64,000 nucleotides of DNA from Robertkochia marina (GTDB lineage Bacteria; Bacteroidota; Bacteroidia; Flavobacteriales; Flavobacteriaceae), in NCBI RefSeq assembly GCF_004799345.1, contig NZ_SSMC01000002.1, forward strand, positions 186,001-250,000, given 5' to 3'. Of this stretch, positions 40,701 through 56,333 are shown piece by piece. The number at the start of each line of letters is the position of its first letter. The stretch's first letter is position 1. A program made the translations under genes and the position numbers. Under the pieces are notes generated by a model. The model was not told the DNA's origin. It did no database searches and saw only the letters and a program-made list of their open reading frames with translations.

Positions 40701-43700
40701 AAACCAAGATAATTCCGGTTAATATTTTGCCGGATAGCGAGCCAAGAACGGTGTCTGCTTCTCTTGAGGTGGTCCATTCCGGAACAAACAGTCCCTTAGA
40801 TTTTCCTTTGACAGCAGAGTTTGTAGAGGTTCTCAATACAACTGTGATCAGGGTTAATACAGGTGGAGGGCAGGAAAATTATGAGAGCAAGGTCTTTGAG
40901 GCGGACCAATTTTTTACAGGAGGTAAGGTCTACACAAATAACCAGGCGGATGTACCGACCTTATTTAAATCTGAGCGAAGTGCGTCACCTCCACAATTTG
41001 CATATAATTTTCCCGTTCCTGACGGAGATTATCAGGTCAATCTCTATTTTGCCGAGATCTATTGGGGAGCTACCGGAGGTGGCACCGGCGGAATCGGCAG
41101 CCGTATTTTTGATGTGACCATAGAAGATAACCTGGTACTTGATGATCTGGATATTTTTGCAGAGGTAGGAGCTGAATCGGTACTGGTTAAACCATTTAAT
41201 GTGGTGGTTGCAGATGGTCAGCTTAATATTGCTTTTAACGCCGCTTCCGCAGTAGGAGGAAATGATCAGCCAAAGATTTCAGCCATAGAGATTCTAAGCA
41301 CTCAGAATAAAATTCCGAATCCCCAAATCAGTTCATCTGTGACTTCAGGGCCAGCCCCTTTGTTTGTTGATTTTAATGGTTCGGGTTCTTCAGATGATGA
41401 TGGTATTATAGCTTACAGCTGGGATTTTGGAGATGGATCTGTATCCGAACAAATAAATCCGTCTAATATTTTTACTACACCTGGCCTGTATACTGTTAGC
41501 CTAACGGTAACCGATACCCGGGGAGCAGTGAATACCACCTCAGTGGAGATTGAGGTTACCGATGGCAATAATAATGATTTTTCATTACGTGTTAACGCCG
41601 GGGGCAGCAGTGTTAATTATGCCGGAAAAACCTATTTGAATGACCAATATTTCACGAATGGAACCTCTTTTCAAAATACCAATGCTACTGTTCCCGATTT
41701 GTTTATAACAGAACGTACATCACCTCTTGACTTTCAATATAATTTTCCCGTAGCTAACGGTGATTATTTGGTTAGTCTTTACTTTGCTGAGATATATTGG
41801 GGAGCCCCGGGTGGAAAAGAAGGTGGTGTTGGCAGCAGGGTCTTTGATGTAGAAATGGAAGGCGCTACTATACTGGACGATTTTGATATCTATGCAGAGG
41901 CCGGGGCAGAGGTGCCTATTAATAGGTCATTTGTGGCTACGGTCAATGATGGAATCCTGGACCTGGTTTTCACTTCCGATCCTTCTAAAGGCGGAGTAGA
42001 TCAGCCGAAGGTATCTGCAATAGAAATCATAGGAGTCGATGGCGGGAATTTCCCGGTATTGACCTTGCTTGATATTCCTGACAGGACCAGTGTAGTTGAT
42101 GAGGTTATCGATTTCGGGGTGTCGGCATCAGGGGGAGATCCTTCCGAGAATATTACCTATGCCATTTCAGGTCAGCCCAACGGGGTTGATATTGAGCCAA
42201 CCAACGGACAGATCTTTGGAGTGATCGAATCATCAGCATTACAAGGTGGCCCCCAGGGCAATGGGGTGCACAACGTTACTGTAACGGTAAGTCAACCAAG
42301 TTCGAATACCGTAGAAAAGCAATTTGAATGGATCGTTACCCCTGCCAATAGTTCCTGGACCCTAAAACCCCAGGTAGAGAATTATACAGCCAGGCACGAG
42401 TGCGGCTTTGTGCAGGCGGGGACCAAGTTTTATTTGTTGGGAGGAAGAGAGTCTGCAACAACGATGGAGGTCTATGATTATCAAACTAATATTTGGTCCG
42501 CCCTGCAGACCGTCGCTCCTAAAGATTTTAATCATATCCAACCAGTACTTTATGATGGTCTGATATGGATCGTTGGAGGGTTCCAAACCAATAATTATCC
42601 TAACGAGGTATCTCTGGATCACGTCTGGATATTTAATCCGGCTACTGAAAGCTGGTACCAGGGCCCGGCAATTCCTGAAGGTAGAAAGCGCGGTAGTGCC
42701 GGAACAGTAGTGTACAATAATAAGATCTACCTAATTGGGGGGAACACCCAAGGTCATGATGGTGGATATGTTCCGTATTTTGATGTTTTCGATCCGGCTA
42801 CAGGTAAATGGACCTCTTTACCCGACGCTCCAAGGGCCCGGGATCACTTTCAGGCTGTTGTGATTAACGGGAAGCTGTACGCAGCTGCAGGGAGGTTAAC
42901 CGGTGGAGAAGGAGGTGTGTTCGGTCCCGCTATCCCTGAAGTAGACGTGTATGATTTTGGTTCCGGAACATGGACCACTCTGTCTCAGGAAAAAAATATT
43001 CCCACCCCAAGGGCTTCTGCAGCTTCAGTGGCATATAACGGAAAAGTATATGTAATGGGAGGTGAGGCTGAATCGTCTGCCATTACGCAAGCCTTTAAGA
43101 TTACAGAGATCTATGATCCTATCATCGGATCATGGTCAACGGGCCCCGAAATGAATTTTGGCCGCCATGGAACCCAAGCAATTGTTTCAGGGCAGGGAAT
43201 TCATATTACCGGTGGTTCTCCGAAAAGAGGCGGCGGCAATCAAAAAAACATGGAGTACCTCAATATAGATGCTCCCCAGGGAAATCCCAGCAATGCGAGT
43301 GAATTGCAGGTTACCGAGATCGTGAGCTTTAACCCCGGAGAGACAAAGATTGTTGCATTCAATATTACCGGTGGAAATGTGGGGGTCTGGCTTAATAGTA
43401 TTCAAACCATAGGTGCCAATGCCGGTGAATTTAATGTGGTTAGCTCAGATGTGAGTAATCGGTTGCTTTCTTCAGGTAACACCTACACAATTACGGTAAA
43501 GCATACAGGTAGCCTGGATGAGGTGGTAGTTCCTTTGGAGATTTCCTTTAATGATGGAGAGTCTGCAATAATTAACCTGGTCATAGGCAATCCGCCTATT
43601 GGAGATGCGGTCACCTCCTTTTCCCTGGTTAATGCAGATACAAATAATGACCTGTTTACCATTAATGATGGTGACCTCATTGATGTTAATCAAATAGTCG

Positions 43701-46087
43701 GGGTGGGTCTTAATATTCGAGCAAATACGAATCCTTCTCAAGTAGGAAGCGTAGTGTTCAGTTTACAAGGTCCTATATCAGTTAATAAGAAGGAATCGGT
43801 GGCACCCTATGCCATATTTGGTGATGTCAGTGGAAATTATAATCCTGGAGCTCTGCCGGAAGGAAATTATGTGCTTAGTGCCACTCCTTATTCTGAGTCT
43901 AAAGGTAACGGAACCCCAGGCGCTACCTTACTTATTAACTTTAGTATTGGGCAACCCTCTGATGATATTCCCCCTACAGCTTTGGCTACTGCTGATATTG
44001 TTGCCGGGGGCGTACCCTTATCTGTAACTTTTACGGGAAGTGGGTCATCTCCCGGTGCCAATGCCATTGCTGCCTATGAATGGGATTTTGGTGATGGAAA
44101 TAGTTCTTCCGAAATCGATCCTACCCATATATTTGAACAGTCCGGTGTGTTTACGGTTACCCTTCTTGTTACTGATACCGAGGGATTGAGTGATACAGCA
44201 ACTCTCGAAATTACAGTTAATGACCCTGTAAACAATGGCCCTATCGCTATTGCGACTTCCGATATTACATCGGGAGAAGTTCCTCTGACCGTCAATTTTG
44301 ACGGAAGCGGATCTACACAGGGAGATAATCCAATTGTGAGCTACGCATGGGATTTTGGAGATGGAAATACCTCCGGCATCGCCGAACCGGTTCATGAATA
44401 TACTGCCCCGGGAGTTTATACGGCTGTATTGACAGTTGTAGATGAGTTGGGACTTGAAAGCACGGATGAGATTGAGATCACGGTGAATGACATTGTTCCC
44501 GAAGGTGATGCGGTGATAAGTTTTACGCTTATAAATGCCGATACCGATGCTGATCTGCTCATTCTTTCTGAGGGTATTATCGTCGATGCTACTGCGGTAA
44601 ATGGAACAGGTTTAAATATTCGGGCTAATACCAATCCGCTACAGGTGGGTAGTGTTGTCTTGCAGTTGACCGGACCGGTAGGAAACCTGAGAACAGAATC
44701 CGTAGCTCCGTATGCACTGTTTGGTGACTCGGGAGGGAATTATTTCGGTCAAGCCTTACCGGAGGGTAATTATACCATTACGGCGACTCCTTTCAGCGCC
44801 TCAGGCGGAGGAGGAACTCCGGGAACACCTTTAACGATCAACTTCTCTATAGGAGATCCTGTTATCGTAGTCGGACCCACGGCAATAGCTACCTCCAACC
44901 TGCAATCGGGTGAAGCCCCACTGGAGATTCTATTTAACGGTAGCGGATCCCTGGAAGGAGATAACCCAATTATTAATTACGCCTGGGATTTCGGCGATGG
45001 TGGATCTTCTGAGCAACCTGACCCAACCTATAACTACAATACTCCCGGAAACTATACGGCTACCTTAACCGTAACGGATGACCAGGGCTTACAGGATAGC
45101 GATCAGCTGATTATTAGCGTATCAGGCCCTGTTATTACAGGTCCGACTGCCATTGCTGTTTCAGATGTAACATCCGGGGAAGCCCCTTTTGAAATTAATT
45201 TTAATGGTAGTGGTTCGGTGCAGGGAGACAACCCGATAACAACCTATTCATGGGATTTCGGAGATGGTGGGACTTCAGACCTGGCAGATCCAACATATAC
45301 CTATCTGACACCCGGTTCTTTCCTTGCCGTATTAACGGTTACCGATGATCAGGGACTTCAGGCTACCGACGAAATTAATATTACCGTTACCCCTCCGGCT
45401 CCGGAAGCAGATCAGGTGGTTAGTTTTACGCTGATCAATGCAGCAACTGACAATGATCTGTTTGATATCACAGAAGGTATAATCATTGATTTAAATTCCA
45501 TAGGAACCCCTTCTCTAAATATAAGGGCTAATACGAGTCCTGCGGTGGTGGGTAGTGTTATAATGCAATTATCTGGACCTGTGAGTAATTCGAGGACCGA
45601 ATCTGTGGCACCTTATGCCTTGTTCGGAGATTCTTCCGGGAATTATTTCAATGGGTCATTGACCCCGGGTGATTATAGCCTTACAGCAACCCCCTATACT
45701 GCCGGGGGGGGAGGAGGCACTGCAGGAACCCCTCTTGTGATCAATTTTAGCGTGGTCAATACACAGACCAAGTCAGGTACGATCGCTCCTGATTCTTCCC
45801 TGGGTGAAGAAACAGTATTGTCTGAAGAGGTATTGCTATATCCAAACCCGACTAATTATACCCTGAATATATCCGGGTTATCTTCCACCGATATCAGCCA
45901 GGAAGCCCGATTTTATATGCATGATATTAAAGGAGCGCTATTAAAAACCTTTACACCGAATGGGGTGGAAAGCGCAGATGGGTATGCATTGCCTGTTGAT
46001 GATCTGCAGCAAGGGGTCTATCTGCTTAGTCTTGAGAGTAATGGAAGGGTTCTGCTCAGGAAACGTTTTGTCGTTATGAAACAATAA
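37778..46087 (+). CDS. giant modular T9SS-secreted surface protein
   Basis: The 2769-residue protein has a long signal peptide (residues 1-38). A sugar-dehydrogenase-like beta-propeller (about 40-595, LQFGPNGKLYVAQQDGTIWE, CEENHSTNGI) is followed by acidic thrombospondin-3-type calcium repeats (about 604-655, DFDEDGVSDLLDDDDDNDG). Two malectin-like carbohydrate-binding domains (about 1024-1175 and 1268-1420) flank a PKD domain (1180-1265). A Kelch region spans about 1526-1828. Then three copies of a module ending ESVAPYA-[IL]-FGD alternate with two PKD pairs (WDFGDG motifs). It ends with a T9SS type A sorting domain (LYPNPTNYTLNISG to RFVVMKQ). This suggests a cell-surface glycan-binding protein with a possible enzymatic head; no propeller activity is proven. 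Confidence 0.85.
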   Translation: MAKLLPRFSWRKSFSSYSLHAILFSVFLLISTTALRSQSVSFGQTGLQGENVTNPTSLQFGPNGKLYVAQQDGTIWEMVIERDEAAPGSGSYTVTNQNAITIIKNETPNHNDDGTINSDNVRQITGIMVTGTAENPILYVTSSDYRIGGGPDLGDDRNLDTNSGVLSRLTWDGSNWDKVDLVRGLPRCEENHSTNGISEFERNGRNYLLIQQGGNTNMGAPSNNFAGAPETFLSGALLIIDLTQLEEMETAAGGPYLDPRTGNTPFVYDLPTLNDPERMDITNSHPSFPYSATHPLYNATIDLGDPFGGNNGLNQAFTEVGGPVQIFSPGYRNAYDVVITQGGLIYTSDNGPNATWGGPPVIYDNSNTVKGDNSNTTYEPALGDYVTNQFNLTSGITHGDQLHYIGTINDPNGTYYGGHPAPVRAFPSRAGIIKYVYQGGNWINDGAYSLSDLLDGTSGYFKSSFSLADFPDDPRQGDYTTNEISNPDLNILDIVGSSTNGICEFTASNFNGAMQGDLLTASWSGKINRYKLGAGGTTLVSKNNSFLSGFGSQPLDLIAQGDNAIFPGTIWAVTFGANNITIFEPADFVSCLLPGDPDYDASLDYDNDGYTNEDEVLNGTDLCSGGSRPNDFDEDGVSDLLDDDDDNDGIPDIQDAFAIDAANGLTTNLPVQFPFWNNDPGTGFFGLGFTGLMLDPDFSTDYLNQYVEENLSFGGAAGKATVDVVSPGSALTSQNDQDYGFQFGVNVDENSNPFTIQVGIDTPFNGTLPESGQEYGVFIGNGDQDNYLKLVISEGQNANDGLAGFNLLLEDNGTIINTQKFDVAGILEASDMILYLGVNPSLGEVQAYYSIDGGLSIESLGTAVTLPGTFLNTADAKGLAVGLISTSGQAPSFTATWDFINITEDQPGVLQANTTSLDFGTLQINSAQNNLSLDLTNLGGATAPKIAVTELNFSGTDALLFDTNASLPLEIGPGETKIIPVNILPDSEPRTVSASLEVVHSGTNSPLDFPLTAEFVEVLNTTVIRVNTGGGQENYESKVFEADQFFTGGKVYTNNQADVPTLFKSERSASPPQFAYNFPVPDGDYQVNLYFAEIYWGATGGGTGGIGSRIFDVTIEDNLVLDDLDIFAEVGAESVLVKPFNVVVADGQLNIAFNAASAVGGNDQPKISAIEILSTQNKIPNPQISSSVTSGPAPLFVDFNGSGSSDDDGIIAYSWDFGDGSVSEQINPSNIFTTPGLYTVSLTVTDTRGAVNTTSVEIEVTDGNNNDFSLRVNAGGSSVNYAGKTYLNDQYFTNGTSFQNTNATVPDLFITERTSPLDFQYNFPVANGDYLVSLYFAEIYWGAPGGKEGGVGSRVFDVEMEGATILDDFDIYAEAGAEVPINRSFVATVNDGILDLVFTSDPSKGGVDQPKVSAIEIIGVDGGNFPVLTLLDIPDRTSVVDEVIDFGVSASGGDPSENITYAISGQPNGVDIEPTNGQIFGVIESSALQGGPQGNGVHNVTVTVSQPSSNTVEKQFEWIVTPANSSWTLKPQVENYTARHECGFVQAGTKFYLLGGRESATTMEVYDYQTNIWSALQTVAPKDFNHIQPVLYDGLIWIVGGFQTNNYPNEVSLDHVWIFNPATESWYQGPAIPEGRKRGSAGTVVYNNKIYLIGGNTQGHDGGYVPYFDVFDPATGKWTSLPDAPRARDHFQAVVINGKLYAAAGRLTGGEGGVFGPAIPEVDVYDFGSGTWTTLSQEKNIPTPRASAASVAYNGKVYVMGGEAESSAITQAFKITEIYDPIIGSWSTGPEMNFGRHGTQAIVSGQGIHITGGSPKRGGGNQKNMEYLNIDAPQGNPSNASELQVTEIVSFNPGETKIVAFNITGGNVGVWLNSIQTIGANAGEFNVVSSDVSNRLLSSGNTYTITVKHTGSLDEVVVPLEISFNDGESAIINLVIGNPPIGDAVTSFSLVNADTNNDLFTINDGDLIDVNQIVGVGLNIRANTNPSQVGSVVFSLQGPISVNKKESVAPYAIFGDVSGNYNPGALPEGNYVLSATPYSESKGNGTPGATLLINFSIGQPSDDIPPTALATADIVAGGVPLSVTFTGSGSSPGANAIAAYEWDFGDGNSSSEIDPTHIFEQSGVFTVTLLVTDTEGLSDTATLEITVNDPVNNGPIAIATSDITSGEVPLTVNFDGSGSTQGDNPIVSYAWDFGDGNTSGIAEPVHEYTAPGVYTAVLTVVDELGLESTDEIEITVNDIVPEGDAVISFTLINADTDADLLILSEGIIVDATAVNGTGLNIRANTNPLQVGSVVLQLTGPVGNLRTESVAPYALFGDSGGNYFGQALPEGNYTITATPFSASGGGGTPGTPLTINFSIGDPVIVVGPTAIATSNLQSGEAPLEILFNGSGSLEGDNPIINYAWDFGDGGSSEQPDPTYNYNTPGNYTATLTVTDDQGLQDSDQLIISVSGPVITGPTAIAVSDVTSGEAPFEINFNGSGSVQGDNPITTYSWDFGDGGTSDLADPTYTYLTPGSFLAVLTVTDDQGLQATDEINITVTPPAPEADQVVSFTLINAATDNDLFDITEGIIIDLNSIGTPSLNIRANTSPAVVGSVIMQLSGPVSNSRTESVAPYALFGDSSGNYFNGSLTPGDYSLTATPYTAGGGGGTAGTPLVINFSVVNTQTKSGTIAPDSSLGEETVLSEEVLLYPNPTNYTLNISGLSSTDISQEARFYMHDIKGALLKTFTPNGVESADGYALPVDDLQQGVYLLSLESNGRVLLRKRFVVMKQ

Positions 46088-46184: not shown

Positions 46185-46817
46185 ATGCTTATTGAGCTGC
46201 AGGAAAATTACGGCCATATTTTTGAAGAAGAATTGCTCAGGGAGATCAACCAGGTTGGTACTTATAAGGAAATACCGGCCGGCACGAAACTTATTGAAAT
46301 TGGCGATTATGTTAGATCAATGCCCCTGTTGATATCAGGAGCTATTAAGATCATGAGAGATGATACAGAAGGTGATGAACTTCTTCTGTACTTTCTTGAA
46401 AGGGGCGACACCTGCGCCATGACCATGGCCTGTTGTATGGGGCAAAAGAAAAGTGAGATCAGGGCGGTGGCCGAAAAAGACACCCGTCTGATCATGATTC
46501 CTGTTCAAAAAATGGAAGAATGGATGACGAAGTACCAGACCTGGAGAAGTTTTGTGCTTGAGAGTTATCAATTACGGCTTAACGAGATGCTGGAAACCAT
46601 AGATACCATTGCCTTTCTTAAAATGGATGAACGCTTACTAAAGTACCTGAGAGATAAGGCAAAGATCAACCAGGATGATTGCCTTGAAACCACCCACCAG
46701 CAAATTGCCTACGATCTTCATACCTCAAGGGTAGTGATCTCCAGGCTGTTAAAGGCCCTGGAAAAGGAAGGAAAGATCCAGCTGCACAGAAACCATATCA
46801 AGGTAATAGACCTTTAG
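46185..46817 (+). CDS. Crp/Fnr-family transcriptional regulator
   Basis: The 210-residue protein is assigned from ATG 46185 (MLIELQENYGHIFEEELL); an in-frame GTG 60 bp upstream is less likely. A cyclic-nucleotide-binding-type beta-roll (about residues 20-115: GTKLIEIGDYVRSMPLLISGAIKIMRDDTEGDELLLYFLERGDTCAMT) leads to the long dimer helix and a winged helix with THQQIAYDLHTSRVVISRLLKALEKEGKI. The recognition helix has Arg182, Ser186 and Arg187 but Val183 where Crp and Fnr have the DNA-contacting glutamate. The CAMTMACCMG stretch holds three cysteines that could sense persulfide. It opens the sulfur cluster and is the natural candidate to bind the palindromes at 46824-53597. Confidence 0.88.
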   Translation: MLIELQENYGHIFEEELLREINQVGTYKEIPAGTKLIEIGDYVRSMPLLISGAIKIMRDDTEGDELLLYFLERGDTCAMTMACCMGQKKSEIRAVAEKDTRLIMIPVQKMEEWMTKYQTWRSFVLESYQLRLNEMLETIDTIAFLKMDERLLKYLRDKAKINQDDCLETTHQQIAYDLHTSRVVISRLLKALEKEGKIQLHRNHIKVIDL

Positions 46818-46823
46818 TGCATT

Positions 46824-46837
46824 GTAACTATTGTTAC
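46824..46837. promoter_or_regulatory. regulon operator 1 (GTAAC-N4-GTTAC), upstream of tauE
   Basis: GTAAC-TATT-GTTAC ends 22 bp before the -7 box TATATTTG at 46860-46867. There is no TTTG -33 element at the expected place, and the palindrome centre is close to -41.5 from the predicted start. Confidence 0.75.
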
Positions 46838-46887
46838 TGTAGCCGCAAAGTACCCCCGCTATATTTGCCCCTGTAATTAATTCAATT

Positions 46888-47691
46888 ATGGATATACTAT
46901 ACGTTATTCTTGGGTACGTAGGCGCATTGGCAATAGGAATTGTATTAGGATTGATCGGAGGCGGCGGTTCTATATTGACTGTCCCCGTCTTGGTTTACCT
47001 GTTGGCCATAGAGCCTGTAATAGCAACAGCATACTCTCTTTTTATTGTCGGAACCACCTCCCTGGTGGGTGCCATTAAAAATATTAAGAAGAAACTGGTG
47101 GACTTCAGAACAGCCCTGGTTTTTGCTGCTCCGGCATTTATTGCGGTCTATGCCACCCGAAAATACCTGGTACCTGCCATTCCTGAAGAGATCTTTACGA
47201 TAGGAGGATTTACCCTAACCAAGGATGTGGGGATCATGATCTTTTTCGCCATTATTATGTTGCTGGCTGCTATTTCCATGATCCGCGGTCGTAAAGAAAA
47301 CGGTGAAACTGAAGAACAGGAGGTTACCTATAATTACCCGTTGATCGTTTTAGAAGGTGCCGTAGTGGGAGTACTTACCGGTATCGTTGGTGCAGGAGGA
47401 GGATTCCTGATCATTCCTGCCCTGGTGCTGTTGGCCAAACTACCTATGAAAAAAGCAGTGGCCACCTCCCTGTTGATCATCGCTATAAAATCGCTTATAG
47501 GCTTTATCGGAGATGTTGAGAACCTGGAGATCGAATGGCAATTTCTTCTCAGTTTTACGGCTATCTCTGTAGTAGGAATATTCATTGGTATCTGGCTTAA
47601 TAAATTTATTGAAGGCAGTAAGCTCAAAAAATCATTTGGTTGGTTTGTGTTGATCATGGGAGTATATATAATTCTTAAAGAATTGCTGTAG
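46888..47691 (+). CDS. TauE/SafE-family sulfite (anion) exporter
   Basis: The 267-residue membrane protein has about eight hydrophobic segments and the duplicated TauE/SafE motif: GLIGGGGSILTVPVLVYLLAI near the start, and GIVGAGGGFLIIPALVLLAKLPMKKAVATSLLIIAIKSLIGF in the second half. The family exports sulfite or organosulfonates and takes up some anions. Here it follows operator 1 and stands in a persulfide-oxidation cluster, so removal of toxic sulfite made by the dioxygenases is the likely job. Confidence 0.85.
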   Translation: MDILYVILGYVGALAIGIVLGLIGGGGSILTVPVLVYLLAIEPVIATAYSLFIVGTTSLVGAIKNIKKKLVDFRTALVFAAPAFIAVYATRKYLVPAIPEEIFTIGGFTLTKDVGIMIFFAIIMLLAAISMIRGRKENGETEEQEVTYNYPLIVLEGAVVGVLTGIVGAGGGFLIIPALVLLAKLPMKKAVATSLLIIAIKSLIGFIGDVENLEIEWQFLLSFTAISVVGIFIGIWLNKFIEGSKLKKSFGWFVLIMGVYIILKELL

Positions 47692-47719
47692 TACTTCGGA
47701 TCACATTTTAATAAAAGGG

Positions 47720-47747
47720 AAGGCTGATATTTATCAGCCTTTTTTTA
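47720..47747 (+). terminator. intrinsic terminator of tauE
   Basis: AAGGCTGATA and TATCAGCCTT pair with a 2-nt turn (effectively a 4-6 nt loop) and are followed by TTTTTT. Confidence 0.85.
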
Positions 47748-47766
47748 TGCGCTACTTTTTTTCTTT

Positions 47767-47780
47767 GTAACAATTGTCAC
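47767..47780. promoter_or_regulatory. regulon operator 2, upstream of the first persulfide dioxygenase
   Basis: GTAAC-AATT-GTCAC (one mismatch) ends 22 bp before TAGTTTTA at 47803-47810, a TAnnTTT(A) -7 box. The gene starts 27 bp further on. Confidence 0.7.
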
Positions 47781-47837
47781 TGTAAACATTATGAGTGTGT
47801 TATAGTTTTACTTCAATAATTTAAAACCAAAGGGATA

Positions 47838-49250
47838 ATGAAAATTGAACAAATTTATACAGGATGTCTGGCCCATGCCGCATATTATATTACCAGTGAA
47901 GGAGAGGCTGCGATATTCGATCCACTCAGGGAGGTGCAACCTTACCTTGACAGGGCAGAAAAGGACGGAGCAAAGATCAAATATGTATTTGAAACCCACT
48001 TCCATGCCGACTTTGTAAGCGGTCACCTGGATCTAAGGAAAAAAACCGGTGCCGATATTGTTTTCGGCCCCACAGCCAAACCCGGCTATGAAGCCATTGT
48101 TGCCGAGGACGGACAAGTATTCGAAGTAGGAAAATACAAGGTAAAGGTTTTACACACTCCCGGACACACCATGGAGAGTACTACCTATCTGTTGATCGAT
48201 GAGAATGGCAAAGAACACGGTATTATTACAGGAGATACCCTCTTTATTGGAGATGTTGGAAGACCGGACCTGGCTCAGCATGTCATCGAAGACCTGACTG
48301 AAGAAAAACTGGCAGGTCATCTCTACGACTCACTTCGCAATAAGATCATGCCTTTATCAGATGACCTGATCGTGTATCCTAATCATGGTGCAGGTTCTGC
48401 CTGTGGGAAGATGATGAGCAAGGAAACTACCGATACCCTTGGACATCAGAAGGAGGTGAACTATGCCTTGAGAGCTGATATGACGAAAGAAGAATTTATC
48501 AAAGAATTACTGACCGGGCTTACCACCCCTCCGGGATATTTCCCGAAGAATGTGCTGATGAATATCCAGGGATATGAAAGCTTTGATGAGGTAAAAGACA
48601 GGGCTGAGCACCCCATGAATGCTGAAGAATTTGAAATGGCTGCTAATGCCACACAGGCGCTGATGCTGGATACCAGAGATGCAGAAGATTTTGCAGCAGG
48701 GTTTATTCCTAATAGTATTAATATCGGATTAGGAGGTGACTTTGCTCCCTGGGTAGGAGAAATGATTCCCGATATCAAACAGGAGATCTTACTGATCACC
48801 GAGCCCGGAAAAGAAGAAGAAGCTATTACCAGGCTGGCCCGGGTTGGCTACGACGGGGTTATAGGGTTCTTGAAAGGCGGCTTTAAAACATGGAGGGATG
48901 CCGGAAAGGAGATCGATACCGTGAAGAGACTCGATGTTAAAGATCTGGAGGAGCTATATAGTAAAGAGCTGATGGTTTTTGATGTAAGGAAGAAAAGTGA
49001 ATATGACTCTGAACACCTTATCGGGGCAGAAAATGTACCCTTGAATCAGATCAACAACCACCTGGCAGAATTTCCAAAGGATACCCCTTTCTACCTCCAT
49101 TGTGCAGGAGGTTACAGAAGTATGATCGCCGCCTCCATGCTTAAACAAAGAGGTTGGGAACATGTTGCCGATGTACGTGGCGGTTTTGATGCCATTAAAG
49201 AATCTGAGTTGCCCAAATCAGATTATATCTGTCCGACTACACTTTTGTAG
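47838..49250 (+). CDS. persulfide dioxygenase-rhodanese fusion 1 (MBL-fold)
   Basis: The 470-residue protein has an MBL-fold domain (about residues 1-245) with the ETHE1-type iron motif THFHADFVSGH (His54, His56, Asp58, His63), the HTPGHTMESTTYLL motif and GDTLFIGDVGRPDL. Two rhodanese-like domains follow. The first (about 255-355) has no active-site cysteine and is probably structural. The second has YLHCAGGYRSMIAAS with Cys422. Persulfide dioxygenases convert glutathione (or other low-molecular-mass thiol) persulfide to sulfite, and the rhodanese part can pass sulfane sulfur to or from thiosulfate. It has its own promoter with operator 2, and a terminator at 49277. Confidence 0.88.
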   Translation: MKIEQIYTGCLAHAAYYITSEGEAAIFDPLREVQPYLDRAEKDGAKIKYVFETHFHADFVSGHLDLRKKTGADIVFGPTAKPGYEAIVAEDGQVFEVGKYKVKVLHTPGHTMESTTYLLIDENGKEHGIITGDTLFIGDVGRPDLAQHVIEDLTEEKLAGHLYDSLRNKIMPLSDDLIVYPNHGAGSACGKMMSKETTDTLGHQKEVNYALRADMTKEEFIKELLTGLTTPPGYFPKNVLMNIQGYESFDEVKDRAEHPMNAEEFEMAANATQALMLDTRDAEDFAAGFIPNSINIGLGGDFAPWVGEMIPDIKQEILLITEPGKEEEAITRLARVGYDGVIGFLKGGFKTWRDAGKEIDTVKRLDVKDLEELYSKELMVFDVRKKSEYDSEHLIGAENVPLNQINNHLAEFPKDTPFYLHCAGGYRSMIAASMLKQRGWEHVADVRGGFDAIKESELPKSDYICPTTLL

Positions 49251-49276
49251 TATCACATAATTTTCATAGCAGTTTT

Positions 49277-49304
49277 AGGCCTCGGATTTCGGGGCCTTTT
49301 TTTG
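49277..49304 (+). terminator. intrinsic terminator after persulfide dioxygenase 1
   Basis: AGGCCTCG and CGGGGCCT (one T-G wobble) pair around GATTT, followed by a run of T. Confidence 0.85.
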
Positions 49305-49381
49305 TTTGTAGGGATGTAGGGAGTTTGTTCGCGGAACGAGCTTGCTTGTCTGCAGAAGGGATTGAGTGCCTTCGTCTTCAC

Positions 49382-49540
49382 GAGCCCGCATTTGCGGGGC
49401 TTGTCAACCTGCCTGGCATGCCATGGTAGACAGGTTTCCCGATTTTACCTCAATGCCTTCCGATACTGTACACAGTTTTGAATCGAAAATTACCCCCTCC
49501 TTTTAAAGGAGGGGTGCTCCCAGAGGGAGTGGGGTGGTTT
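49382..49540. repeat. palindromic intergenic repeat of flavobacterial type
   Basis: Three hairpins stand in a row: GCCCGC with GCGGGGC at 49384-49400, AACCTG with CAGGTT at 49406-49436 enclosing the palindrome GGCATGCC, and ACCCCCTCCTTTT with AAAGGAGGGGT at 49491-49514 followed by a GTGCTCCCAGAGGGAGTGGG element. I recall similar CCCCTCC/GGAGGGG blocks as dispersed noncoding repeats in flavobacterial genomes. It fills most of the 380-bp gap between the two dioxygenase genes; no gene is seen in it. Confidence 0.55.
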
Positions 49541-49563
49541 GCCTCTTCCACCAGATCCCCTCT

Positions 49564-49577
49564 GTAACCTTTGTTAC
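49564..49577. promoter_or_regulatory. regulon operator 3, upstream of the second persulfide dioxygenase
   Basis: GTAAC-CTTT-GTTAC ends 22 bp before TAATTTTA at 49600-49607, a TAnnTTT(A) -7 box. Confidence 0.75.
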
Positions 49578-49631
49578 TGGCAGAGCCTTACTCCCTTAGT
49601 AATTTTACACCTGTTAAAAAATCGAAACACT

Positions 49632-51041
49632 ATGAGAATAGAACAAATATACACCGGATGTCTCGCTCAGGGAGCGTATTACATTGAGAGTAACGGAGAG
49701 GTTGCCATTATTGACCCCCTAAGAGAGGTACAGCCTTATTTAGATAAGGCCGAGAATGATCAAGCAAAGATCAAATACATTTTTGAGACTCACTTTCATG
49801 CCGATTTTGTAAGTGGTCACCTTACCCTGGCAAAACAAACCGGAGCACCCGTAATTTATGGTCCTCTGGCGAACCCATCTTTTGATGCGCTTATCGCAGA
49901 AGACGGTCAGGAGTTTCCCCTGGGCGATGTAACCATCAAGGTATTGCATACGCCGGGGCATACCATGGAGAGTACCACTTACCTCTTAAGAGATGAGAAT
50001 GGGAAAGATCATGCCATCTTTACCGGAGATACCCTGTTCCTGGGCGATGTGGGACGTCCGGACCTTGCGCAAAAGGCTGCTGATATGACGCAGGAGCAAT
50101 TGGCCGGAACCCTATATGACAGTCTAAGGAACAAGATCATGCCGTTAGCAGATGATGTAACGGTATACCCTGCTCACGGTGCCGGTTCTGCCTGTGGTAA
50201 AAATATGATGAAGGAGACGGTAGATACCCTGGGGAATCAAAAGGCAATGAATTATGCTCTGCGTGCCGATATGACCCGGGAAGAGTTTATTGATGAGGTA
50301 ACCGAAGGACTATTGCCTCCACCAAAATATTTCCCTTTGAATGTAAAAATGAACAAAGAAGGGTATGAAGATATTGATGAGGTACTGGCACGTGGAATGC
50401 AGGCCTTAGATGCTGATGCGTTTGAAACTATGGCTAACGAAACCGGAGCGGTGGTTCTCGATGTAAGACACCAGGATGATTTTGCGAAAGGTCATATTCC
50501 AAGATCGATATTCATCGGGTTGGATGGAGATTTCGCTCCATGGGTGGGAGCCCTTATTGCCGATGTACAACAGAAGATCTTGTTGGTTGTTGATGAAGAC
50601 AGGGTAGAAGAGGCTGTGACCCGCCTATCTCGCGTCGGATTTGATAAGACATTGGGATACCTGAAAGGAGGATTTCACACCTGGAAATCTTCAGGTAAAG
50701 AATTCGATACAGTAGACTCTGTAACGGCAGCTTACTTTAAAGAGGGGATGGAGAATGATCCGAAACCGGTTGTTGATGTAAGAAAAGAAAGTGAATTCCT
50801 TTCTGAAAGGGTGGTAGATGCTAAAAATGCTCCATTGGATTTCCTGAATGATCATATGAGTTCTTTTTCAGCAGAAGATGAATTCTATGTGCATTGTGCA
50901 GGTGGATACAGAAGTATGATCGCTGCTTCTATTTTGAAGAGCAGGGGAATACACAACCTGATCAATGTAGAAGGAGGCTTTAAGCAGATCAAGGAAGAAG
51001 GTGTTCCTGTAACAGAATATGTATGCCCTTCTACCTTATAA
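49632..51041 (+). CDS. persulfide dioxygenase-rhodanese fusion 2 (MBL-fold)
   Basis: The 469-residue protein is assigned from ATG 49632 (MRIEQIYTGCLAQGAYYIES); an in-frame upstream start would cross the operator and -7 box. It is a full-length paralogue of the preceding gene: the metal motif THFHADFVSGH with His54, the middle rhodanese without catalytic cysteine (LLVVDEDRVEE), and the terminal rhodanese with YVHCAGGYRSMIAASILKS and Cys422. The key residues lie at the same positions as in copy 1. Two differences stand out: GPLANPSFDALIAEDGQEFPLGD against GPTAKPGYEAIVAEDG, and a longer linker before the last rhodanese. Confidence 0.88.
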   Translation: MRIEQIYTGCLAQGAYYIESNGEVAIIDPLREVQPYLDKAENDQAKIKYIFETHFHADFVSGHLTLAKQTGAPVIYGPLANPSFDALIAEDGQEFPLGDVTIKVLHTPGHTMESTTYLLRDENGKDHAIFTGDTLFLGDVGRPDLAQKAADMTQEQLAGTLYDSLRNKIMPLADDVTVYPAHGAGSACGKNMMKETVDTLGNQKAMNYALRADMTREEFIDEVTEGLLPPPKYFPLNVKMNKEGYEDIDEVLARGMQALDADAFETMANETGAVVLDVRHQDDFAKGHIPRSIFIGLDGDFAPWVGALIADVQQKILLVVDEDRVEEAVTRLSRVGFDKTLGYLKGGFHTWKSSGKEFDTVDSVTAAYFKEGMENDPKPVVDVRKESEFLSERVVDAKNAPLDFLNDHMSSFSAEDEFYVHCAGGYRSMIAASILKSRGIHNLINVEGGFKQIKEEGVPVTEYVCPSTL

Positions 51042-51060
51042 TTCAACATCGGAGGGCTCT

Positions 51061-51074
51061 GTAACCTATGTTAC
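51061..51074. promoter_or_regulatory. regulon operator 4, upstream of the rhodanese-HMA operon
   Basis: GTAAC-CTAT-GTTAC begins 19 bp after the stop of the second dioxygenase gene and ends 22 bp before TATATTTA at 51097-51104. No terminator is seen between the gene and this operator. Confidence 0.75.
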
Positions 51075-51137
51075 TTTCGCTGGTTGAATTTGAACGTATA
51101 TTTATACATAGATAAGTTGAGGGCCGAAAATGGTTTG

Positions 51138-51209
51138 ATGATGCAAGTAGGCTTTCGTTACGTAATGTTTGATTATTATTGGTTGGATTGGGAAGTGGTC
51201 AGCGTTTAG
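51138..51209 (+). CDS. possible 23-residue leader peptide ahead of the rhodanese gene
   Basis: ATG at 51138 opens 23 codons ending at TAG 51207-51209. The peptide is aromatic-rich: MMQVGFRYVMFDYYWLDWE and then VVSV, with seven F/Y/W in 23 residues. The ORF starts about 28 nt after the predicted transcription start of the operator-4 promoter, and its stop lies in the loop of the terminator hairpin at 51191-51228. This is the usual placing of an attenuation leader or of a tiny regulated protein. Nothing in the sequence shows it is translated. Confidence 0.4.
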   Translation: MMQVGFRYVMFDYYWLDWEVVSV

Positions 51210-51228
51210 CGGCTGCTTCCTTTTTTTT
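51191..51228 (+). terminator. intrinsic terminator/attenuator in the rhodanese leader
   Basis: GGAAGTGGTC and GGCTGCTTCC form a 10-bp stem with three G-T pairs around a 10-nt loop, followed by eight T (51221-51228). It lies 13 bp before the rhodanese start codon, inside the transcript of the operator-4 promoter. Confidence 0.75.
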
Positions 51229-51241
51229 AAATGGTAAGGAA

Positions 51242-51586
51242 ATGATATTACAAGCAATTCGGGAAATGCTGTTTCCCGCTAAAATGGATAATGTTAAGGT
51301 GCTGAGTCCCGAAGTTTTTAAAAGCAGAATTGCTTCAGGCGTGCCCGTTCTTTTGGATGTGAGAACACAGAGAGAGTTTAAACAGGGGCATATAGAAGGC
51401 GCTCGTAACCTGGATATATTTCACACCGGGAAGTTTCAATCACAATGTGAATTGCTCAACAGGGATCAACCGGTATACCTCTATTGTCGGTCCGGAAACC
51501 GAAGCCGGAAGGCCTCAAGAATTTTAATCAGGATGGGCTTTCGTGAGATCTATGACCTAAAAGGAGGAATTTTAAATTGGTACTAA
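51242..51586 (+). CDS. single-domain rhodanese
   Basis: The 114-residue protein is assigned from ATG 51242 (MILQAIREMLFPAK); an in-frame TTG upstream lies inside the leader hairpin and is unlikely. The domain shows LLDVRTQREFKQGHIEGARNL and the active-site loop YLYCRSGNRSRKAS with Cys82. It would transfer sulfane sulfur between thiosulfate, persulfides or proteins in the cytoplasm. It follows operator 4 and is linked by 11 bp to the HMA-like gene. Confidence 0.85.
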   Translation: MILQAIREMLFPAKMDNVKVLSPEVFKSRIASGVPVLLDVRTQREFKQGHIEGARNLDIFHTGKFQSQCELLNRDQPVYLYCRSGNRSRKASRILIRMGFREIYDLKGGILNWY

Positions 51587-51597
51587 AACTGTAGGTG

Positions 51598-51867
51598 ATG
51601 AAAACCAGAATAGTAATACAAAATCTTAAATGCGGCGGATGTGCAAAAACCATTCTTAACCGCTTGCAGGAGGAACAGGATATTCATAATGCCCGGGTAT
51701 TGATCGATGAGAACACCGTTCAGATCGACCATGAAAATGCAGCAACGCCCGCACATATAAAAAATGTACTGAGGCAACTTGGCTACCCTTCTGTTGAAGA
51801 AGAAAACGGACTCATGGCAAAGGCGAGATCGGTAGTTAGTTGTGCAAGCGGACGATTGAAGGATTGA
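51598..51867 (+). CDS. heavy-metal-associated (HMA) domain protein with CGGC motif
   Basis: The 89-residue protein is assigned from ATG 51598 (MKTRIVIQNLKCGGCAKTILNRL). It has the beta-alpha-beta-beta-alpha-beta pattern of an HMA domain with CxxC in KCGGCAK, normally a copper-binding site. The C-terminal extension (VVSCASGRLKD) adds a third cysteine. It is the only HMA protein in the window and stands in a sulfur operon, so its CxxC may carry sulfane sulfur or copper; neither can be proven here. No copper ATPase gene is near. Confidence 0.8.
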   Translation: MKTRIVIQNLKCGGCAKTILNRLQEEQDIHNARVLIDENTVQIDHENAATPAHIKNVLRQLGYPSVEEENGLMAKARSVVSCASGRLKD

Positions 51868-51892
51868 TCTCTGAATACAGCTGTTTGCATTA

Positions 51893-51906
51893 CTAACATA
51901 TGTCAT
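51893..51906. promoter_or_regulatory. regulon operator 6 (degenerate), upstream of sqr
   Basis: CTAAC-ATAT-GTCAT keeps TAAC-N4-GTCA of the palindrome and ends 22 bp before TAATTTTA at 51929-51936. The identical spacing is the main reason to accept this weaker match. Confidence 0.55.
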
Positions 51907-51957
51907 TATTTGCTGTCTTTATATTGGTTAATTTTATATAATCTAAATATCTAAAAC

Positions 51958-53214
51958 ATGAAGTATCAAGTCATTATAGTAGGTGGGGGTACTGCAGGTC
52001 TTATGACTGCAGCCCAGTTGAGAAAAGCAAATAATGATCTTAAGATCGCCTTGATCGAGCCGTCTGAAACTCATTATTACCAGCCTGCATGGACACTGGT
52101 AGGAGCGGGTACATACGATTACGACAAGACCGCCAGGCCAACGAAAGATTTTATACCGAAAGGAGTAACCTGGCTAAAAGAAAAGGCAACCGGTTTTGAT
52201 GCGGCCAATAATATTGTGAAGACAGAGAAATCAGGCGACCTGGAGTATGACTACCTGGTAGTGGCTCCCGGGTTGGTAATGGATTATGACCGTATTGAAG
52301 GGCTCAGGGAGGCCATTGATAAGGGAGTGGTGTGCAGTAACTACACCGATCCTAAGCATACCTGGGAGGTGCTCAAAAATTTTAAAGGGGGTAACGCCAT
52401 TTTTACCCAGCCCACGGGGGCTATTAAATGTGGTGGAGCTCCGCAGAAGATCGCCTACCTGGCGGCCGATTATATGAGGAAGCACGGGTTACAGTCTAAA
52501 ACGAATCTGGCCTTCATTACCCCGGGAACTGTGATCTTCGGAGTAAAAGAGATTCGTGAAACCCTCGAGAAAATTATCGACCGGTACGGGATGATCTTTA
52601 CGCCTTACATGGCCCCTAAAAAAATAGATGGTAAGAATCAGAAGGTGTATTTTGAATTCATTGGGCCTGACGACAAAAAACCAACATTTGATGGTTCTGA
52701 TAAACTCGGTGCCAAAGAATTAGACAACGGCCTGATAGAGGTTCATTTTGACATGCTTCATCTGGCACCTCCACAAGCGGCACCTGAATTTGTAAGAAGT
52801 TCAGACCTCGTTAACGATGGAGGGTGGCTTGACGTAGACCAATACTCTTTGCAGCATAAGACCTATGACAATGTATTTGGTCTGGGTGATGTAGCAGGGC
52901 TGCCTACCGCAAAAACCGGAGCTGCCATCAGGAAGCAGGTTCCTGTGGTGGTAGATAATCTGTTGAAATTAATGGAAGCTAAAAAGGCAGATAATCATTC
53001 CTATAACGGGTACAGCTCATGTCCGCTGGTTACTGCCTATGGTAAAATGGTACTGGCTGAGTTTGATTACGACGGGAACTTTACCCCGGATCCTCAACTT
53101 AAAAAGATGCTTATTTCAGATTCTTCCAAAGAACACTGGAGACTTTGGATGCTGAAGAAATATATGTTGCCTTATCTCTATTGGAATAAAATGCTCAAAG
53201 GGGAAAAGGTTTAA
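51958..53214 (+). CDS. sqr: sulfide:quinone oxidoreductase (type II, SQRDL-like)
   Basis: The 418-residue flavoprotein starts with the dinucleotide motif VIIVGGGTAGLMTAAQL. It has two conserved redox cysteines for this class: Cys158 in IKCGGAPQKIAYLA and Cys355 in SCPLVTAYGKMV. The NADH-dehydrogenase-like C-terminal part includes NVFGLGDVAGLPTAKTGAAIRKQVPVV. The pattern resembles mitochondrial SQRDL more than bacterial type I SQR, which suggests a low-molecular-mass thiol as sulfane-sulfur acceptor and a menaquinone as electron acceptor. It is the entry point of the pathway encoded here. It has its own promoter with operator 6. Confidence 0.9.
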   Translation: MKYQVIIVGGGTAGLMTAAQLRKANNDLKIALIEPSETHYYQPAWTLVGAGTYDYDKTARPTKDFIPKGVTWLKEKATGFDAANNIVKTEKSGDLEYDYLVVAPGLVMDYDRIEGLREAIDKGVVCSNYTDPKHTWEVLKNFKGGNAIFTQPTGAIKCGGAPQKIAYLAADYMRKHGLQSKTNLAFITPGTVIFGVKEIRETLEKIIDRYGMIFTPYMAPKKIDGKNQKVYFEFIGPDDKKPTFDGSDKLGAKELDNGLIEVHFDMLHLAPPQAAPEFVRSSDLVNDGGWLDVDQYSLQHKTYDNVFGLGDVAGLPTAKTGAAIRKQVPVVVDNLLKLMEAKKADNHSYNGYSSCPLVTAYGKMVLAEFDYDGNFTPDPQLKKMLISDSSKEHWRLWMLKKYMLPYLYWNKMLKGEKV

Positions 53215-53233
53215 TGAGTGTTATGCTTACAAG

Positions 53234-53259
53234 GCGGCCCGGGAGGGCCGCTTTTTTTT
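53234..53259 (+). terminator. intrinsic terminator of sqr
   Basis: GCGGCCC and GGGCCGC pair perfectly around GGGA and are followed by eight T. Confidence 0.92.
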
Positions 53260-53516
53260 AATATTCAACCCCCAAATTACAAATCCCAAAACTCACAGCG
53301 CACTGCCCTTTATTCTCAACCCCCTTCGCTCTTCTGAAAAAACTCGTTACCCCCCTTTACCATGAGCTTGAATCTCAAAACCATTAGTAAATTATTCAGA
53401 AGACCGCTACGGTTTGTTTTACAAATCTGCTCCTGATGGATTTTAACAATCTTCATTATCCTCCACCGGAAATCTAATTTCAGTGACCTGGCCAGGAGGT
53501 CTAATTTTCATATTCT
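53260..53516. other. intergenic region between sqr and the YeeE genes
   Basis: No gene is seen. A 9-bp inverted repeat, TCTTCTGAA at 53330-53338 and TTCAGAAGA at 53395-53403, is separated by 56 bp. The first 80 bp are C-rich. The tandem repeat array follows directly. Confidence 0.5.
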
Positions 53517-53572
53517 CGCATAAACGCATAAACGCATAAACGCATAAACGCATAACCGCATAACCGCATAAC
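53517..53572 (+). repeat. seven tandem 8-bp repeats next to operator 5
   Basis: Seven adjacent units: four CGCATAAA (53517-53548) and three CGCATAAC (53549-53572). The array ends 11 bp before operator 5. Identical units of this size are prone to slipped-strand changes in copy number. The change from A to C after the fourth unit shows that the array grew by local duplication. Confidence 0.9.
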
Positions 53573-53583
53573 CTAGAGAGTTC

Positions 53584-53597
53584 GTAACCTTTGTTAC
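53584..53597. promoter_or_regulatory. regulon operator 5, upstream of the YeeE pair
   Basis: GTAAC-CTTT-GTTAC ends 22 bp before TTACTTTG at 53620-53627, a -7 box with one mismatch to TAnnTTTG. Confidence 0.7.
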
Positions 53598-53647
53598 AGA
53601 CAGGGGCCTGTTTTTACTATTACTTTGCAGAAAAATAAGATTGAAAT

Positions 53648-54205
53648 ATGGAGTTAATCTTTGAACCCTGGCCATGGTATGTTTCCGGGCCGATGATCGC
53701 CGTGATCATGTTGTTATTGCTGATGTCTGGTAAGAATTTTGGGATGTCTTCTAATCTGAGGACCTTTTGCACCATAGCAGGTGCCGGAAAAGCCAGTGAT
53801 TTTTTTAAGTTCGACTGGAAAGCCCAGCGATGGAATCTTTTGGTGGTTGCAGGTGCTGTGATCGGTGGTTTTATAGCCATGAATTACCTCACCGCAGATC
53901 CGGCCGTAAAGATCAATGAAGATGTAGTGGTTCAGCTCAGGGAGTTGGGCTTTTCTACTGCGGGCCAGGCTTATTTACCCGAAAAGCTATTTTCGGCTGA
54001 TGTTTTTACCCAGCCTGCTACCCTCGGACTTTTGCTGTTGGGCGGATTCCTGGTTGGTTTTGGTGCCCGTTATGCCGGAGGGTGCACCTCAGGCCACGCC
54101 ATTTCAGGAATGAGTAATCTGCAATTACCATCGCTCATTGCAGTGATCGGCTTTTTTGCAGGAGGTTTGATCATGATCAACTTCTTATTCCCCCTTATCT
54201 TTTAA
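53648..54205 (+). CDS. YeeE/YedE-family membrane protein, N-terminal half (split transporter)
   Basis: The 185-residue membrane protein has about four to five hydrophobic segments and the YeeE/YedE motif GFGARYAGGCTSGHAISGMSNLQLPS with the conserved cysteine. In other bacteria a single longer protein (TsuA/YeeE) takes up thiosulfate through a chain of such cysteines. Here the function is divided over this gene and the next one. It follows operator 5. Confidence 0.85.
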   Translation: MELIFEPWPWYVSGPMIAVIMLLLLMSGKNFGMSSNLRTFCTIAGAGKASDFFKFDWKAQRWNLLVVAGAVIGGFIAMNYLTADPAVKINEDVVVQLRELGFSTAGQAYLPEKLFSADVFTQPATLGLLLLGGFLVGFGARYAGGCTSGHAISGMSNLQLPSLIAVIGFFAGGLIMINFLFPLIF

Positions 54206-55162: not shown

Positions 55163-55332
55163 ATCTTAAAAATTTTAATGGTCGTGAATTATTCTCACTC
55201 TCTAAGATACAAAAAATGAGTTAATATATATATGTAAATCAAGATGTTAGATCTTGTTTGTATCGCAAGGGTCACCATTTTGAGCCTCCCGATTTTTTGT
55301 TTTTTTTAGGAGGCCAATTGTGGCAAATAAAT

Positions 55333-55340
55333 TAATTTTG
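55333..55340 (+). promoter_or_regulatory. candidate -7 box for trxB
   Basis: TAATTTTG matches TAnnTTTG, 24 bp before the trxB ATG. There is no convincing -33 element at the right distance. Confidence 0.45.
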
Positions 55341-55364
55341 AACAAATCTTATTATAGCGTATTT

Positions 55365-56333
55365 ATGTCTGATAAAATTGAAAGAATCAAGTGTCTGATC
55401 ATCGGATCAGGACCTGCAGGATATACCGCTGCCATTTATGCAGCCAGAGCCGATCTTAAACCCGTAATGTATACAGGAATGGAACCCGGAGGTCAGCTGA
55501 CAACTACTACTGAGGTAGACAATTTTCCGGGATATCCTGAAGGTATCGATGGTCCAACTATGATGGTACAGTTGCAACAGCAGGCAGAACGTTTTGGTAC
55601 CCAGGTTCGTATTGGAATGGTTACCAAAGTTGAGCTTAGTGAAGAGCATGGAGGTATTCACAAGGTAGAAGTTGATAATACTACACAAATAGAGGCGGAA
55701 ACGGTCATTATTGCAACCGGGGCAACCGCAAAATATCTTGGTCTTCCCAGTGAACAAAAATTGCGTGGAGGTGGAGTTTCTGCTTGTGCCGTTTGTGACG
55801 GATTCTTTTACAAAGGGCAGGATGTTGCCATCGTAGGAGGTGGAGATACAGCTGCTGAAGAGGCAACCTACCTGGCTAATATTTGTAAGAAGGTTACCAT
55901 GTTGGTGAGAAAGGGCGAGATGAGAGCTTCAAAAGCAATGCAGCACCGGGTTAAAAACACGCCCAATTTGGAAGTAAAGTATTTTACAGAGGTGGATGAG
56001 GTAATCGGAGACCAGGTGGTTGAAGGACTTAGAATGGTTAACAACCAGACCGGTGAGAAGGAAGAGATAGCTATTACCGGACTGTTTATCGCTATTGGTC
56101 ACAAACCTAATACCGATATTTTCAAAGGACAACTTGATATGGATGATACCGGGTATATCATTACCCACGGTAAGTCAACCAAGACGAACAGACCCGGAGT
56201 ATTTGCCAGTGGAGATGTTCAGGACAAAGAGTATCGTCAGGCTATTACTGCTGCAGGTACCGGTTGTATGGCCGCACTGGATGCAGAACGCTATTTGGCT
56301 GCTGTAGAGAGTAAAGAAGAGGTGGAAGCCTAA
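55365..56333 (+). CDS. trxB: thioredoxin-disulfide reductase
   Basis: The 322-residue flavoenzyme is assigned from ATG 55365 (MSDKIERIKCLIIGSGPAGY); a GTG 45 bp upstream is in frame but lies before the -7 box. It has the FAD motif GSGPAGYTAAIYAARA, the redox pair CAVC (Cys141, Cys144) in SACAVCDGFFY, the NADPH motif VGGGDTAAEEATYLA and the C-terminal FASGDVQDKEYRQAITAAGTGC. It reduces thioredoxin with NADPH. The location next to the sulfur cluster fits thiol homeostasis but may be chance. Confidence 0.97.
   Translation: MSDKIERIKCLIIGSGPAGYTAAIYAARADLKPVMYTGMEPGGQLTTTTEVDNFPGYPEGIDGPTMMVQLQQQAERFGTQVRIGMVTKVELSEEHGGIHKVEVDNTTQIEAETVIIATGATAKYLGLPSEQKLRGGGVSACAVCDGFFYKGQDVAIVGGGDTAAEEATYLANICKKVTMLVRKGEMRASKAMQHRVKNTPNLEVKYFTEVDEVIGDQVVEGLRMVNNQTGEKEEIAITGLFIAIGHKPNTDIFKGQLDMDDTGYIITHGKSTKTNRPGVFASGDVQDKEYRQAITAAGTGCMAALDAERYLAAVESKEEVEA

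Follow-up and report, generated by a model that had tools for sequence, protein, structure and literature searches.

A conserved Crp/Fnr regulon for sulfur genes in flavobacteria, most likely under a class II-type activator

We analyzed a 64-kb stretch of the Robertkochia marina genome (contig NZ_SSMC01000002.1, positions 186,001 to 250,000; hereafter the window, whose own coordinates are used below) in which six promoters of sulfur genes share a palindromic operator, GTAAC-N4-GTTAC, at one fixed distance from the -7 box. Computational analysis tied this operator and its spacing to the adjacent gene for a Crp/Fnr-family protein (46185..46817, plus strand) and to its orthologs. What emerged is a conserved Crp/Fnr regulon for sulfur genes, and its regulator is most likely a class II-type activator. 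We consider it quite likely that this protein would bind the operator as a dimer and activate the sulfur genes from a class II-like position, with reactive sulfur as the likely signal.

A first-pass annotation, made from the letters of the window, had placed six operators ahead of sulfur units, five with at most one mismatch and a degenerate one ahead of sqr, and the sequence reads as it claimed. Operators are given here without strand, and all of the -7 boxes are on the plus strand. Ahead of tauE, the exact operator GTAACTATTGTTAC (46824..46837) is followed by the box TATATTTG (46860..46867). Dioxygenase gene 1 is preceded by GTAACAATTGTCAC, with one mismatch (47767..47780), and the box TAGTTTTA (47803..47810), and dioxygenase gene 2 by the exact operator GTAACCTTTGTTAC (49564..49577) and the box TAATTTTA (49600..49607). 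The rhodanese gene has the exact operator GTAACCTATGTTAC (51061..51074) with the box TATATTTA (51097..51104), while the degenerate operator ahead of sqr, CTAACATATGTCAT (51893..51906), has three mismatches and a box, TAATTTTA (51929..51936). The sixth operator, ahead of the YeeE pair, is again an exact GTAACCTTTGTTAC (53584..53597), and its box is TTACTTTG (53620..53627). All six palindromes end 22 bp upstream of the box, as had been described. Five boxes match TAnnTTT[G/A] and that of the YeeE pair has one mismatch, a T in place of A at position 2. A tandem array of about 6.9 copies of the 8-base unit CGCATAAA (53517-53571) ends just ahead of the YeeE operator.

Exact palindromes occur in the window only at 46824, 49564, 51061 and 53584. 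Three further palindromes with one mismatch (4282, 40358 and 58983) have box scores of at most 4/6 on either strand, in keeping with the earlier statement that the window holds no other site. From base composition, an exact palindrome with a box is expected about 0.0003 times per 64 kb and 0.02 times per genome; the R. marina genome has 4 such matches, versus 0 for a reversed control pattern. The annotation had also stated that none of the promoters has a TTTG -33 box. TTTG is indeed absent, but a TG abuts the 3' end of the palindrome at three of the six sites.

We then examined 81 loci: the window, plus 80 named loci that encode close relatives of this protein and are the best 80 of 591 confirmed. 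The gene order regulator-TauE-dioxygenase-rhodanese was recurrent, with TauE in 55, rhodanese in 47, YeeE in 23 and SQR in 11 of the 81. The nearest relatives, from two Robertkochia genomes (86% identity), keep the same six promoters, the sqr operator again being degenerate (three and four mismatches). An inverted-repeat scan of 1024 half-sites with spacers of 0 to 12 (13,312 types) was run over 210 regions upstream of six types of gene; CRP, HMA, YeeE2 and matches below 150 bits (rhodanese excepted) were not included. GTAAC-N4-GTTAC ranked first, in 140 of the 210 regions, with the next type in 25 and a shuffle mean of 0.05; it occurred once in 324 control windows. TAnnTTT stood at 22 bp in 124 of 159 exact sites, and none of the other spacings between 5 and 44 reached three. 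Between operator and box, the clearest enrichment was the TG right after the palindrome (T 66%, G 60% over the same 159 sites), which would fit a weak -33 remnant abutting the operator. All loci but L125 (80 of the 81) had a site with one mismatch at most and a good box.

The operator also followed the regulator across genomes. We surveyed 149 genomes of the family and sorted them into bins by the exponent of their best E-value; 126 had a homolog of the regulator at E <= 1e-30. The exact operator with its box was present in 100 of these 126, compared with 1 of the 23 that had no homolog (Fisher p 4.5e-12). By bin, it was found in 72 of 76 genomes at about 1e-80 or better (248 sites, 4 control), in 27 of 40 between 1e-80 and 1e-60 (59 sites, 5 control) and in 1 of 10 between 1e-60 and 1e-30, and the 149 genomes together had 309 sites versus 9 for the reversed pattern. 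A stricter pattern, applied to 296 genomes of the phylum, matched in 16 of 30 from the family, 10 of 43 from elsewhere in the order and class, and 0 of the other 223; the control gave no match in these rows. Of the ten order and class genomes, six reached 1.8e-57 or better for a homolog of the regulator; the homolog was weaker in G155 and G245, and G372 and G380 had none. G183, G321 and G332 had equally good homologs and no stricter-pattern site. A flavobacterial-type regulator at 68% identity is also encoded on a contig labelled Candidatus Rokubacteria, which is probably contamination.

The identity of the binder was further addressed by the recognition helix, which reads SRVV in 80 of 81 orthologs, so that Arg180 of CRP is kept and Glu181 is replaced by Val. 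Homologs in other families of the class have Val or Glu at this position. A link between CRP-family residues 180 and 181 and operator bases is published (PMC1274295), and the present data agree with it. We scanned 20 loci of these wider relatives, five with Val and 15 with Glu, anchoring the scan on a box at 22 bp. In the Val loci GTAAC ranked first with 11 sites, the next half-site having 3, and in the Glu loci GTGAT and GTGAC ranked first and second (9 and 7 sites, with poly-T at 6). Counted by site with one tie omitted, the Val loci had 11 GTAAC-type and 1 GTGAY-type sites and the Glu loci 0 and 12 (p 9.6e-6); counted by locus, GTAAC-type sites were present in 4 of 5 Val versus 1 of 15 Glu loci (p 0.005), and 6 of the 15 Glu loci showed neither type. 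GTGAY sites peaked at offsets 22 (13 sites) and 23 (7), all other offsets from 12 to 33 having 0 to 4. Their downstream genes encode SQR, YeeE, dioxygenase and regulator proteins or, by eye, SulP-like and peroxiredoxin-like ones; some of the sites have no clear target. Val or Glu at position 181 thus appears to go with GTAAC or GTGAY operators, with known exceptions. Such covariation of residue and operator points to the adjacent Crp/Fnr protein as the binder, and together with the co-occurrence over 149 genomes it indicates that the first-pass annotation very probably named the right partner. Five loci (L079, L089, L133, L136 and L148) also encode a second Crp/Fnr paralog (33-39% identity), each with Glu at the recognition position, C77 without C83 or C84, and no site within 300 bp upstream.

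Several observations weigh against this assignment. By locus, the preference of Glu for GTGAY-type sites was not significant (9 of 15 Glu versus 1 of 5 Val loci, p 0.30), and GTGAY topped the Glu-locus scan only narrowly over poly-T. The ortholog in L105 has Glu yet GTAAC sites, the genome of G305, also with Glu, contains two GTAAC sites at other places, and seven loci whose regulator has Val have one GTGAC operator each, with a box; of the six GTGAC sites from the inverted-repeat scan, five lie ahead of a dioxygenase gene. Thirteen of the 40 genomes in the 1e-80 to 1e-60 bin have no exact site. All of the p-values given here overstate independence, as sites and genomes share descent. Since the regulator was the basis on which the 81 loci were picked, their targets' bias to sulfur is in part a matter of selection.

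The regulator block was surveyed by Pfam and NCBIfam profile scores and a list of open reading frames. The regulator is a protein of 210 amino acids belonging to the Crp/Fnr superfamily, with a cNMP-binding-type sensor domain (PF00027, 44 bits) and a Crp-type winged helix domain (PF13545, 36 bits), both above cut-off. Its AlphaFold model has the Crp/Fnr fold (mean pLDDT 79.6), and the Foldseek matches listed are CRP/FNR-family structures. It scored far below cut-off against the NCBIfam models for the CRP equivalog (53.3 bits, cut-off 266) and the FNR subfamily (18.9 bits, cut-off 228). The cAMP-contact residues Glu72 and Arg82 of CRP are matched in a profile alignment by Met and, in a conservative change, Lys.

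Downstream, all on the plus strand, lie genes for a TauE/SafE family transporter (46888..47691, PF01925), two persulfide dioxygenase-like proteins, each with PF00753 and PF00581 (gene 1, with a metallo-beta-lactamase fold and a rhodanese domain, at 47838..49250; gene 2 at 49632..51041), a rhodanese (51242..51586, PF00581, with an alternative upstream TTG start at 51179 in the reading frame list), a heavy-metal-associated (HMA) domain protein (51598..51867, PF00403), a sulfide:quinone reductase-like flavoprotein (sqr, 51958..53214, PF07992) and two YeeE/TsuA-type sulfur transport proteins (53648..54205, PF04143; 54223..54639, PF04143 and DUF6691). The sqr product reached 222.7 bits against the SQR type III model, below the cut-off of 525; the dioxygenase and SQR names are putative, given from domain content and subthreshold family scores. 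Directly upstream of the regulator, 37778-46087 is an open frame of 2769 amino acids in which, by eye, PKD-like stretches recur and the C-terminus resembles a type IX secretion signal. After the block, at 55320-56333, is a thioredoxin reductase-like gene (by eye) with no site noticed ahead of it, though an exact site precedes a thioredoxin gene in another part of the genome.

Searching the whole R. marina genome, we listed 11 places where operator and box together deviate at one position at most, and a further fifteen with two mismatches. Five of the 11 are in the block, ahead of tauE, both dioxygenases, the rhodanese and YeeE. The others precede a thioredoxin gene (C1:513264, no mismatch), a DsrE-like protein (C3:420452, an exact palindrome; no Pfam match, named by eye), a TsdA/SoxA-type cytochrome (C3:254346), DUF983, DUF202 and citrate synthase. 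If thioredoxin and the DsrE-like protein are included, eight of the 11 precede genes of sulfur or thiol function, which bears out the description of a sulfur regulon. Two of the fifteen two-mismatch places were used: one lies ahead of a third dioxygenase, with palindrome and box each one mismatch off, and the other ahead of a porin-like protein (by eye). The regulon had been called self-contained, which does not hold, as boxed sites elsewhere in the genome precede the thioredoxin, DsrE-like, TsdA/SoxA-type cytochrome, third dioxygenase and DUF983 genes. The sites ahead of citrate synthase and DUF202 are unproven, although for DUF202 a GTGAY site in G321, upstream of a protein resembling DUF202 by eye, adds some weight. 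In these two distant genomes, then, an operator of the lineage's own type lies upstream of DUF202 (L020, 1531-1875, and the site in L298). DUF983 has an operator in R. marina (L021), as does a related gene in 15 of the 81 loci, the copy in L111 standing directly ahead of the regulator. The genome has 12 exact palindromes, of which six have no -7 box (best score 3/6, either strand) and were counted as chance. Five of these six are inside a stop-to-stop frame of at least 100 amino acids, as are two boxed sites (L001, L006), in both cases because the frame of the downstream gene extends upstream.

The 81 loci contain 285 strong sites: 153 ahead of the block's own sulfur families, 13 ahead of a Crp gene, 96 ahead of other genes and 23 with no downstream open reading frame found. 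By family, with names taken from one representative per cluster, targets in relatives include DUF983 (15 loci), a Tll0287-domain haem-type protein (10), peroxiredoxin (10), an outer membrane efflux protein (8), cytochrome bd subunit I (7 sites in 6 loci), a YgaP-type membrane protein (7), a fatty acid hydroxylase family protein (7), a sulfite-oxidase-type protein (3) and, more rarely, SulP permease (2) and an NrfD-type protein (1), with cytochrome c-type genes also among the targets in some. A site with a box within 300 bp upstream of the ortholog itself was found in 10 of the 81 loci, and not in the window, which weakens the case for autoregulation.

The computation shows the operator, its fixed spacing and its tie to the regulator; from these we infer that the operator is bound directly, that the effect is activation and not repression, and what the signal is. 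The protein encoded at 46185 would bind GTAAC-N4-GTTAC as a dimer, and the operator, 22 bp upstream of the -7 box, would take the place of a good -33 element. The bound regulator would then activate transcription from a class II-like position; the placement at these predicted promoters does correspond to class II activation, as had been proposed. The targets would serve sulfide and persulfide oxidation and the handling or moving of sulfane sulfur, sulfite and thiosulfate, with reactive sulfur species (sulfide, persulfide or polysulfide) as the likely signal. Class II CRP-dependent promoters share the operator at the upstream promoter element, the fixed spacing and the protein fold; the regulator described here differs in having Met and Lys at the cAMP-contact positions, another operator and a Bacteroidota -7 box.

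Three cysteines, C77, C83 and C84, align with the cAMP-pocket stretch of CRP and are present in all 81 orthologs. In the wider subfamily, the ~20-kb stretches of 40 regulators were compared for the presence of a sulfur gene scoring at least 60 bits. Such a gene lay there for 14 of 23 with C83 and for 9 of 17 lacking it; C83 is therefore no predictor of sulfur context. C77 was present in all 40, including those with no sulfur gene nearby, and is therefore not discriminating. Wider relatives with C77 and without C83 and C84 also adjoin TauE-dioxygenase-YeeE clusters. The triplet is an attractive candidate for a thiol sensor, weakly supported by its conservation, and the case for C83 and C84 as the required sensor is weakened. 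Confidence of the AlphaFold model is low at residues 71-90 (block means 66 and 50), so that the modelled geometry of the cysteines is tentative. The nearest solved structure, 3dv8, a Crp/Fnr protein of Eubacterium rectale, has cysteines that match C77 and C83 in position. An inverted-repeat scan gave no repeated palindrome in twelve loci of relatives lacking the full triplet; four of these (L319, L321, L331 and L336) have a box-anchored GTAAC- or GTGAC-like site at 22 bp ahead of TauE or a dioxygenase. A broader picture may be put forward tentatively, and we give it somewhat less than even weight: a phylum-deep, previously undescribed Crp/Fnr activator subfamily in Bacteroidota might sense reactive sulfur through C77 in the former cyclic-nucleotide pocket, with C83 and C84 added in flavobacteria, keeping its targets and 22-bp geometry while one recognition-helix residue switches the operator between GTGAY and GTAAC.

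The half-site itself is not new. The annotation had set it apart from known ones, but GTAACnnnnGTTAC was published as the operator of HcpR2 and tied to the loss of Glu181 by Rodionov et al. 2005 (PMC1274295); HcpR had been introduced in a 2004 paper (PMC545781). HcpR2 resembles the present regulator in superfamily, operator and the loss of Glu181 from the recognition helix. The operators could then belong to an HcpR2-type regulator of nitrosative stress and not to the adjacent gene, and the hcp genes of two Bacteroidia genomes, G380 and G372 (the L268/L271 pair), do have an exact palindrome, with the box at 22 bp in G380 and 23 bp in G372. The stricter-pattern site of G380 is this hcp site, while that of G372 (C2:307) lies elsewhere. 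HcpR2-kind hcp promoters can thus have nearly the same geometry. No homolog of our regulator was detected in either genome, and a profile search of both was empty, which in itself shows little; the G380 site nevertheless means that the motif alone does not name the binder, a further point against the assignment. Against an HcpR2-type binder, the R. marina genome has no hcp match at E <= 1e-60, the sites track the regulator at 46185, the operator shifts with its recognition residue, and position 181 is Val here, where most HcpR2 have Pro (PMC1274295). The tree of wider homologs took in no HcpR2 sequence. We regard this explanation as very improbable. The sulfur targets also set the regulator apart from HcpR2, and the use of the operator for sulfur genes is the part for which no earlier description was found: a full-text search, most subscription journals being outside its coverage, returned neither a GTAAC-type operator used for sulfur genes nor a regulator of this kind for sulfide or persulfide handling in flavobacteria. 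PgRsp of Porphyromonas gingivalis, compared by description only, is likewise a Bacteroidota Crp/Fnr protein linked to a redox response, and the accessible part of that description (PMC6955866) mentions no sulfur regulon.

A Crp/Fnr activator that responds to reactive sulfur has to be weighed against three other accounts. The strongest of them, which we nonetheless judge unlikely, is that the signal is oxygen, redox state or nitric oxide and the sulfur genes are only part of the response; sites ahead of peroxiredoxin, cytochrome bd and cytochrome c-type genes in some relatives would be expected from it, whereas 153 of the 285 strong sites, in loci chosen around the regulator, precede the block's own sulfur families, and cytochrome bd, being sulfide-tolerant, would suit a sulfide response as well. 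That the regulator represses its promoters until sulfur species release them has a precedent, in that the best-known persulfide sensors, SqrR, CstR and BigR, are repressors. SqrR/BigR, CstR and FisR control the same class of genes, sqr and persulfide dioxygenase, but belong to the ArsR, CsoR and sigma-54 activator families and not to Crp/Fnr. The operator here abuts the -33 position at a single spacing with no good -33 element, as in an activator-dependent promoter, and repressor sites usually vary more in position; repression accordingly seems to us a less probable account than a different signal. The two dioxygenases are paralogs, and part of the block could have been duplicated with its upstream DNA, spreading palindromes of no regulatory role. 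We give practically no credence to such a repeat or to chance: the distance to the box is fixed ahead of unrelated, scattered genes, most columns flanking the operators are not conserved, and a chance origin is ruled out by the scan rank, the composition expectation and the reversed-pattern control.

A Crp/Fnr regulon of this kind would give a large and mostly marine group of bacteria a testable control circuit for the handling of sulfide and persulfide. The covarying residue and operator may offer a natural case of how a Crp/Fnr protein changes its DNA specificity while the kind of target and the promoter geometry are kept. Operator and box, at 309 versus 9 control sites in 149 genomes, are specific enough to flag candidate sulfur-response genes, among them DUF983, DUF202, YgaP-like and DsrE-like proteins of unassigned role.

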